Assembly (NCBI RefSeq): GCF_036322625.1
Contig: NZ_AP027266.1
Span: 3,475,001 to 3,539,000 of the forward strand
DNA length: 64,000 nt
Reading direction: 5' to 3'
Source of the DNA: Roseicyclus marinus
GTDB lineage: Bacteria; Pseudomonadota; Alphaproteobacteria; Rhodobacterales; Rhodobacteraceae
A program made the translations under genes and the position numbers. Below are positions 43,467 through 44,255 of the stretch, one piece after another; position 1 is the stretch's first letter, and each line of letters starts with the position of its first letter. The notes below the pieces were generated by a model. It had not been told where the DNA came from. It did no database searches and saw only the letters and a program-made list of their open reading frames with translations.

Positions 43467-43940
43467 TCAGTGACGGGCCTTCATGGTCGCCCAGACCGCG
43501 AAGGCCCGTCTATCCTTGTTGTCCGTCCGTCGATAAAGCCTGATTGCTTCTTCCACGGCATCGATGATCTGCACGACATCGCTGAGTTGGAAGCGTGACA
43601 TGGGGTCGTAATCAGCATTGTGCCGATCCTCCTGCAACTTCACGAACAAGTTGCCGAAGTCTTGGATTTCTTGCGGAAATCTCGTCATCACCTTGCCATT
43701 GCTGCATTGGGCCTTGGCGAACCCGTGCTCGACCGAACGGTAGGCTTGGCGCCATGCGGGCGCGCTTCGCATCGACCCGGCAGTCCCGATCATTCCGTCG
43801 GCTACTGTTCTGCAGACCTCATGAAACAGGGCGTAATATGCGCTGCTGACCGCGCGTTTCAGGTCGGATTGTCGAGGCCTGCGCGATGAACGCCTCGTCA
43901 CTAAGAGTTTTGCCGTTTGGATAAGGTCAAGCGGCTGCAG
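43467..43940 (-). CDS. HEPN-like protein, apparent CTG start
   Basis: A 157-residue helical protein. DLKRAVSSAYYALFHEVC (near 24-41) is the signature of the AYYALFH branch of HEPN-fold proteins, and RHNADYDP near 116 is a second conserved block. The canonical RNase motif RxxxxH is not seen, so nuclease activity is doubtful. No ATG, GTG or TTG gives the complete fold; CTG at 43940 begins QPLDLIQTAKLL, the usual N-terminal helix, and has AGGAAG six bases before it. It overlaps the upstream small gene by 14 bases. A GTG at 43901 would cut off helix one. Confidence 0.7.
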   Translation of the reverse strand: MQPLDLIQTAKLLVTRRSSRRPRQSDLKRAVSSAYYALFHEVCRTVADGMIGTAGSMRSAPAWRQAYRSVEHGFAKAQCSNGKVMTRFPQEIQDFGNLFVKLQEDRHNADYDPMSRFQLSDVVQIIDAVEEAIRLYRRTDNKDRRAFAVWATMKARH

Positions 43941-44217
43941 CTGCGTCTTCCTTGACGGTCGCGAAGTTGAACATCGGGAATTCGTTAACGTCGAGGGGAA
44001 TGAGCGCCTCACGCAGATTGCGTATCAAGCCCCTTACGGCTGTCGGATTGAGCCTGTCATTTTCGGCTTCGAACACGATCTTGATCCGCAAGATCGGGTC
44101 GCCGTCGTGGTCCAGATCGCGTGCCACGTCCACCCGCACGATCCGTGCAGGGCGAAGCTCACGCACAATTACATCGTGTATCGCCGTAAAAAGGGTTTGA
44201 TCGATCACCTTGGTCAT
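43927..44217 (-). CDS. Small protein upstream of the HEPN-like gene
   Basis: A 96-residue acidic-to-neutral protein (MTKVIDQTLFTAIHDVIV, RIVRVDVARDLDHDGDPI, FEAENDRLNPTAVRGLIRNL). I do not recognise it. The DHDGDPILRIKIVFEA segment suggests a beta-hairpin fold, and the C-terminus is alanine-rich. Its size, position before a HEPN gene and overlap with it suggest an antitoxin-like partner, which is inference. The promoter lies nine bases from the ATG, so the message may be leaderless. Base composition is lower in GC than its neighbours. Confidence 0.6.
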   Translation of the reverse strand: MTKVIDQTLFTAIHDVIVRELRPARIVRVDVARDLDHDGDPILRIKIVFEAENDRLNPTAVRGLIRNLREALIPLDVNEFPMFNFATVKEDAAAAA

Positions 44218-44226
44218 GATCCCATC

Positions 44227-44255
44227 AATATAGACATTCCTTTACAATTCGTGAA
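44227..44255 (-). promoter_or_regulatory. Promoter for the small-protein/HEPN pair
   Basis: On the minus strand TTCACG (-35, 44250-44255) and TATATT (-10, 44227-44232) are 17 bases apart, 4 of 6 and 5 of 6 matches to the sigma-70 consensus. The -10 ends nine bases before the ATG at 44217, so transcription should start at or next to it, giving a leaderless message. Confidence 0.4.

Follow-up and report, generated by a model that had tools for sequence, protein, structure and literature searches.

Background

The Rx4-6H RNase motif is typical of most, but not all, HEPN families. The class II HEPN/MNT toxin-antitoxin systems (PF05168/PF01909; PMC7641770) are two-gene, accessory and mobile units in which the small partner is encoded upstream of a HEPN protein that has conserved Arg and Tyr residues and no RX4H. 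In HEPN/MNT systems, antitoxin first and HEPN as toxin is the rule, and a HEPN may be toxic even when it has no RX4H (PMC3710099; PMC7641770). HEPNs of the AF0298 type (PDB 2hsb, UPF0332) also do without the canonical His, and another conserved His, within YYAxFH, may form an alternative site (PMC3710099). Two further solved HEPN structures, 9xbd and 9xbc, carry an R-x3-DY(F)D motif; no paper on entry 9XBD was found among open-licence papers. Finally, the MAE_18760 HEPN is associated with an upstream ParA/Soj-like ATPase, a non-MNT partner that has been proposed as antitoxin (PMC3710099).

The Roseicyclus marinus module described here resembles each of these systems in part. It shares the layout, mobility and RX4H-less HEPN of the class II HEPN/MNT systems, but its partner has no MNT domain and its HEPN protein has extra helices, an R68/H72 pair, a CTG start and a 14-nt gene overlap; we infer that it works like a HEPN/MNT system and do not class it as a member, the MNT motif GSx10DxD being absent from every member of the small-protein family. 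The family profile of the HEPN protein matches 9xbd (1.3e-7), 9xbc (9e-7) and AF0298 (1.3e-5), which is also the top fold match. However, 9xbd and 9xbc both lack the His of the YYALFH motif found here, and AF0298 shows weak overall similarity (fold E 0.11) and has a different partner. The likeness to MAE_18760 is one of arrangement, the partner here being a 96-aa alpha/beta protein and not an ATPase. We propose, with a probability of roughly 60%, that the module is a type II toxin-antitoxin-like operon, compact and accessory, in which a predicted HEPN toxin is throttled by a CUG start and the small protein acts as a non-MNT antitoxin.

Organisation of the locus

The window, i.e. the whole stretch of 64,000 nucleotides that was analysed (contig NZ_AP027266.1, positions 3,475,001 to 3,539,000), belongs to a genome made of a single contig of 3.55 Mb, in which the module lies on the minus strand and no second copy was found. 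The nearest homologous locus, L002, comes from a Roseicyclus MAG (HEPN homologue 92% identical, aligned DNA 83% identical). The features, in window coordinates, are as follows.

43927..44217, minus strand: small-protein gene, predicted antitoxin; 96 aa, conserved DxxG(D/E) turn, purifying selection
43467..43940, minus strand: HEPN-like gene, predicted toxin; 157 aa from the CTG, conserved YYALFH, R68/H72 and RxxADYDP motifs
43938..43940, minus strand: CTG start codon of the HEPN gene, assigned from start-column comparison, codon-phase switch and tree
43947..43952, minus strand: AGGAAG, Shine-Dalgarno-like, 6 nt 5' of the CTG and within the small gene; unchanged in L002
44227..44232, minus strand: -10-like hexamer TATATT, 9 nt 5' of the small-gene ATG; predicted near-leaderless promoter
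44250..44255, minus strand: -35-like hexamer TTCACG, 17-nt spacer; TTCAC(G/T/A) common to the window, L002 and L003
43464..44281, no strand assigned: segment holding the module; 59 bp stand there instead in congener G372 (locus L089)

A preliminary description, made from the letters of this DNA, had reported the two open reading frames of 96 and 157 residues with their 14-base overlap (leaving the minus strand unmentioned), the AGGAAG six bases before the CTG at 43940, the TATATT ending nine bases before the first ATG and a GC content below that of the neighbours. All of these are present in the sequence, with the hexamers at 43952-43947 and 44232-44227, both genes on the minus strand, and a GC content of 53-58% in the module versus about 61-67% in the flanks. 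Between the window and L002 the HEPN gene has a dN/dS of 0.03 and the small gene one of 0.065, so that both are taken as real genes under purifying selection; the value of 0.03 rules out a pseudogene for the HEPN frame. Both frames are also open in L003, at 66% protein identity.

Pairing, distribution and genomic context

HEPN homologues were gathered from GTDB contigs, plasmids, viral contigs and genomes sampled from the family, class, order and phylum, and 85 non-redundant loci made up the comparison set of start regions. A member of the small-protein family adjoins the HEPN gene in 77 of these 85 loci (HMM); five of the other eight have a similar-looking upstream ORF (by eye) and three are near contig ends. 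The small gene always lies 5' of the HEPN gene, and the pair was seen in Alphaproteobacteria, Actinobacteria and Phycisphaerae, so that the conserved neighbour set anticipated by the preliminary description does exist, across phyla. Inspection of the listed loci by eye showed no clear defence genes nearby, a point against the toxin-antitoxin reading.

The module is carried by 31 of 397 genomes in the family sample and by 28 of 385 in the class sample. It is absent from three congeners, and in one of them, G372, the 59 bp stand between the same flanking genes; within these 59 bp lies an inverted repeat rich in GC, CCCCGGACATGCCGGGG, which may be the terminator of the aminotransferase gene. In L002 and L003 the module occupies the same chromosomal site as in the window, which suggests that it was present in a shared ancestor and lost in the congeners, gain being the alternative. 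It also occurs on Rhizobium plasmids, in one copy between repC and a ParB-family gene, on another plasmid and on viral contigs. A two-gene operon with conserved pairing and the small partner first, patchily distributed and mobile, is characteristic of type II toxin-antitoxin systems, which are further defined by a toxic product that the other product relieves by binding it directly.

Nine HEPN-family matches, several of them partial, were found in genome G103 (contigs C249 to C852), and L013, L019, L024, L039 and L063 carry in-frame stops or frameshifts or have lost the start, which suggests that the module decays frequently. In distant HEPN relatives of other Pseudomonadota (L154-L158, L160-L162, L165), the upstream protein is about 240-300 residues long, with a C-terminal part like the small protein and a TPR-like N-terminal part (both by eye); it is possibly a sensor-fused antitoxin.

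The HEPN protein

The preliminary description had taken the pair for an undescribed module and its longer product for HEPN-like. Neither protein has a convincing match in Pfam, NCBIfam or PADLOC, for the HEPN protein in a single-sequence search, and its HEPN kinship is supported by the profile matches cited above (1.3e-7 to 1.3e-5) and less strongly by fold: its AlphaFold2 model (pLDDT 91.2, pTM 0.86) placed AF0298 first and HEPN-MNT structures next in a search of the PDB, with no E-value below 0.1.

Among the 85 proteins, S32, F39 and H72 are invariant, R68 and Y35 are conserved in 99%, H40, R106 and D110 in 96% and Y111 in 95%. The canonical His of RxxxxH would be residue 111, where a Tyr stands, and the Rx4-6H motif is thus absent, as had been noticed beforehand; the loss of activity that had been suggested from it, as one option beside a different mechanism, is not supported in that form, since H40, R68, H72 and R106 are near-invariant and the AF0298-type HEPNs offer a precedent (PMC3710099). 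H40, in YYALFH, corresponds by motif to the alternative His of the AF0298 type, and R68 with H72 forms a further conserved pair. H40, R68, H72 and R106 are therefore candidates for a non-canonical HEPN active site, as judged from conservation.

All 19 aligned members of the HEPN family match phrog_5176, a phage protein family without described function (best 2.3e-15; 1.7e-5 for the window protein), and phrog_5176 is therefore probably this HEPN family.

Several observations speak for a toxin-antitoxin: the pairing, sporadic spread, plasmid and viral carriage, purifying selection, HEPN profile and model, and the CTG start. Against it stand the Tyr in place of the canonical catalytic His, a partner without known antitoxin relative, and the same chromosomal site kept in L002 and L003, which a housekeeping or regulatory role would also fit. 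The pair might then serve in phage defence, or form an RNA-binding regulator and its partner, with a HEPN that has no nuclease activity, as has been suggested for some of the MtlR family. The missing His, the vertical persistence at one site, the match of all family members to a phage family and the existence of proposed non-catalytic HEPNs (PMC3710099) are in its favour, but the patchy presence, the carriage on plasmids and viral contigs, the multiple and broken copies and the near-invariance of other His and Arg residues are less easily accommodated, and we regard this reading as unlikely.

The small protein

The model of the small protein (pLDDT 92.2) has the order helix-strand-strand-helix-strand-helix, and its fold matches are unspecific alpha/beta proteins, mostly alpha/beta plaits. 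Two matches were judged to be due to chance, one to DruH (PADLOC, E 0.038) and one of a single family member to RimP (E 0.0029). The family profile was compared with 20 sequences from an MNT search, one of which is evidently not an MNT, and gave a probability of 0.2%; the comparison with a RimP set of only 5 sequences gave 0.6%, and a split-half positive control 99.8%. At the level of sequence profiles, the small protein thus has no relatives outside its own family in the libraries searched.

These values bear on a rival reading as a divergent HEPN/MNT system, with the small protein as a degenerate and catalytically dead MNT that would neutralise by binding only. In favour of it, the HEPN protein belongs to the AF0298/PF05168 kind, known to pair with MNTs, the helix and strand order of the model could suit a reduced MNT core, and the fold search gave a weak match to an aminoglycoside nucleotidyltransferase at rank 7. 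However, no member retains GSx10DxD, the 0.2% contrasts with the 99.8% of the control and the fold matches are mostly other alpha/beta plaits, which makes a degenerate MNT quite improbable.

Promoter of the small gene

A consensus scan found TTCACG-17-TATATT as the only promoter-like site in the region, where 0.3 were expected. TATANT lies exactly 6 nt 5' of the small-gene start in seven homologous loci and 9 nt in the window; at 4-10 nt before the start it was found eight times versus 0.5 in shuffles. The codon preceding the ATG of the window is ATC, where L002 has ATG, and therefore the start in the window appears to be shifted by one codon, with a predicted leader of about 3 nt. In other homologues a Shine-Dalgarno-like sequence precedes the small gene instead. 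The leaderless promoter of the preliminary description is accordingly plausible in its near-leaderless form for the window and some homologues, as the -10 box is suitably placed and recurs in near relatives, and does not hold as a trait of the whole family. Leaderless mRNAs, whose 5' end lies at the start codon or within a few nt of it, occur in Alphaproteobacteria, with 171 mapped in S. meliloti (PMC3616915).

In L022 (3626-3991 and 3992-4453, Rhizobium plasmid NZ_CP053444.1), the annotation begins the small gene at an ATG that lies about 73 nt 5' of the one after the TATATT box; this annotated start is probably misplaced.

Start codon of the HEPN gene

The CTG is the sole well-placed start of the HEPN frame in the window. 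ORF callers would choose an in-frame GTG at 44012, 24 codons further 5' (181 aa) and the sole canonical start of the frame on that side; this candidate was discarded because the frame of L002 is closed beyond that point and the codon phase switches at the CTG. Over the 72 nt 5' of the CTG, the window and L002 differ 1, 9 and 0 times at the first, second and third HEPN codon positions, the second being there the third position of the small gene, and 3' of the CTG they differ 10, 8 and 69 times, mostly at the HEPN third position. HEPN coding therefore begins at or beside the CTG.

The 14-nt overlap recurs exactly in 28 of the 85 loci, and the start column of these holds CTG in 14, GTG in 4, ATG in 4 and TTG in 2, hence NTG in 24 of 28; in the remaining four a canonical start lies one or two codons further 5'. 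Start calls are rule-based where several candidates exist (e.g. L030, L042, L054). The preliminary description, which had proposed the CTG, had named homologues with a standard codon elsewhere as evidence that would refute it; standard codons were found at the same place, e.g. in viral contig L087 (ATGCAGCCGCTTGA, versus CTGCAGCCGCTTGA in the window). Thirteen loci have an open frame without ATG, GTG or TTG up to the fourth codon, L146 has a stop codon immediately 5' of the CTG, and in L004 and L070 stop and CTG are one codon apart. A classical 4-nt stop/start overlap of the form CTGA is found in L036, L039 and L043, and in other homologues the two genes are separate and the HEPN gene starts with GTG or ATG. 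A mere conserved leucine was rejected as an explanation of the column, given the ATG and GTG found there and the 13 frames without other start.

All 20 CTG rows fall within a subclade of 42 rows of a protein tree (quick method, modest support) from which the start residue was left out, and along which CTG and other starts have replaced one another at least 12 times; the CTG persists between proteins that share only 45-50% identity. In the AlphaFold2 model helix 1 begins at residue 3 and would be truncated by a start far 3' of the CTG. A genuine CTG start should show homologous starts in the same column, a frame free of other starts and a coding signal that begins at the codon, and the start of the HEPN gene at the CTG is strongly supported by this comparison of sequences. 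No signal of RNA structure was found at the HEPN start (z-scores -1.1 to 0.9).

Alternatively, ribosomes might shift by +1 within the 14-nt overlap (GCU UGA C) and make the HEPN protein fused to the small protein, with no initiation at the CTG. This would fit the sense of the overlap, the UGA then C at the end of the small gene of the window and the many HEPN frames missing a canonical start, but is hardly credible given the NTG, ATG and GTG included, in 24 of 28 loci, the overlaps reduced to CTGA, the separate genes with GTG or ATG starts and a slip site that is not conserved.

CUG is reported to account for about 0.024% of bacterial start codons and, in E. coli, to give about 0.86% of the output of AUG (PMC11497404); AUG-to-CUG switches were reconstructed at about 3 in 100,000 (PMC5622118). 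Nothing relevant on a HEPN with a CTG start codon was found among open-licence papers.

Proposed mechanism

Comparison of the homologous loci itself provides the operon, the CTG start, the conservation and the accessory spread, and on these the toxin-antitoxin reading builds. A promoter with almost no leader would yield early and abundant small protein, the predicted antitoxin, and CUG initiation, aided by the internal Shine-Dalgarno sequence and by the ribosomes translating the small gene, would yield little HEPN protein, the predicted toxin. The small protein would neutralise the HEPN protein by binding; AMPylation of a HEPN tyrosine is not expected from it because GSx10DxD is absent. If plasmid loss, phage or stress left too little small protein, the HEPN protein would arrest growth, cutting or blocking RNA via H40, R68, H72 and R106 and not via the canonical RxxxxH.

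More tentatively, and as a possibility that we consider doubtful when taken as a whole, CUG might be in the alphaproteobacterial clade a selected and repeatedly re-evolved throttle on the HEPN toxin, possibly sensing the state of initiation factors or initiator tRNA, combined with a relocated active site (H40/R68/H72/R106) and a novel antitoxin family.

Conclusions

What is of interest here is chiefly the conserved CTG start, together with the new partner family. The module adds a non-MNT partner family to the HEPN proteins, offers a candidate non-canonical HEPN active site and draws attention to genes that standard gene callers overlook or start at the wrong place. It would also permit a direct test of whether start-codon strength sets the dose of a toxin. 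CTG is the commonest start codon in one clade of this HEPN family, which would make it a natural example of selection for an extremely poor start.
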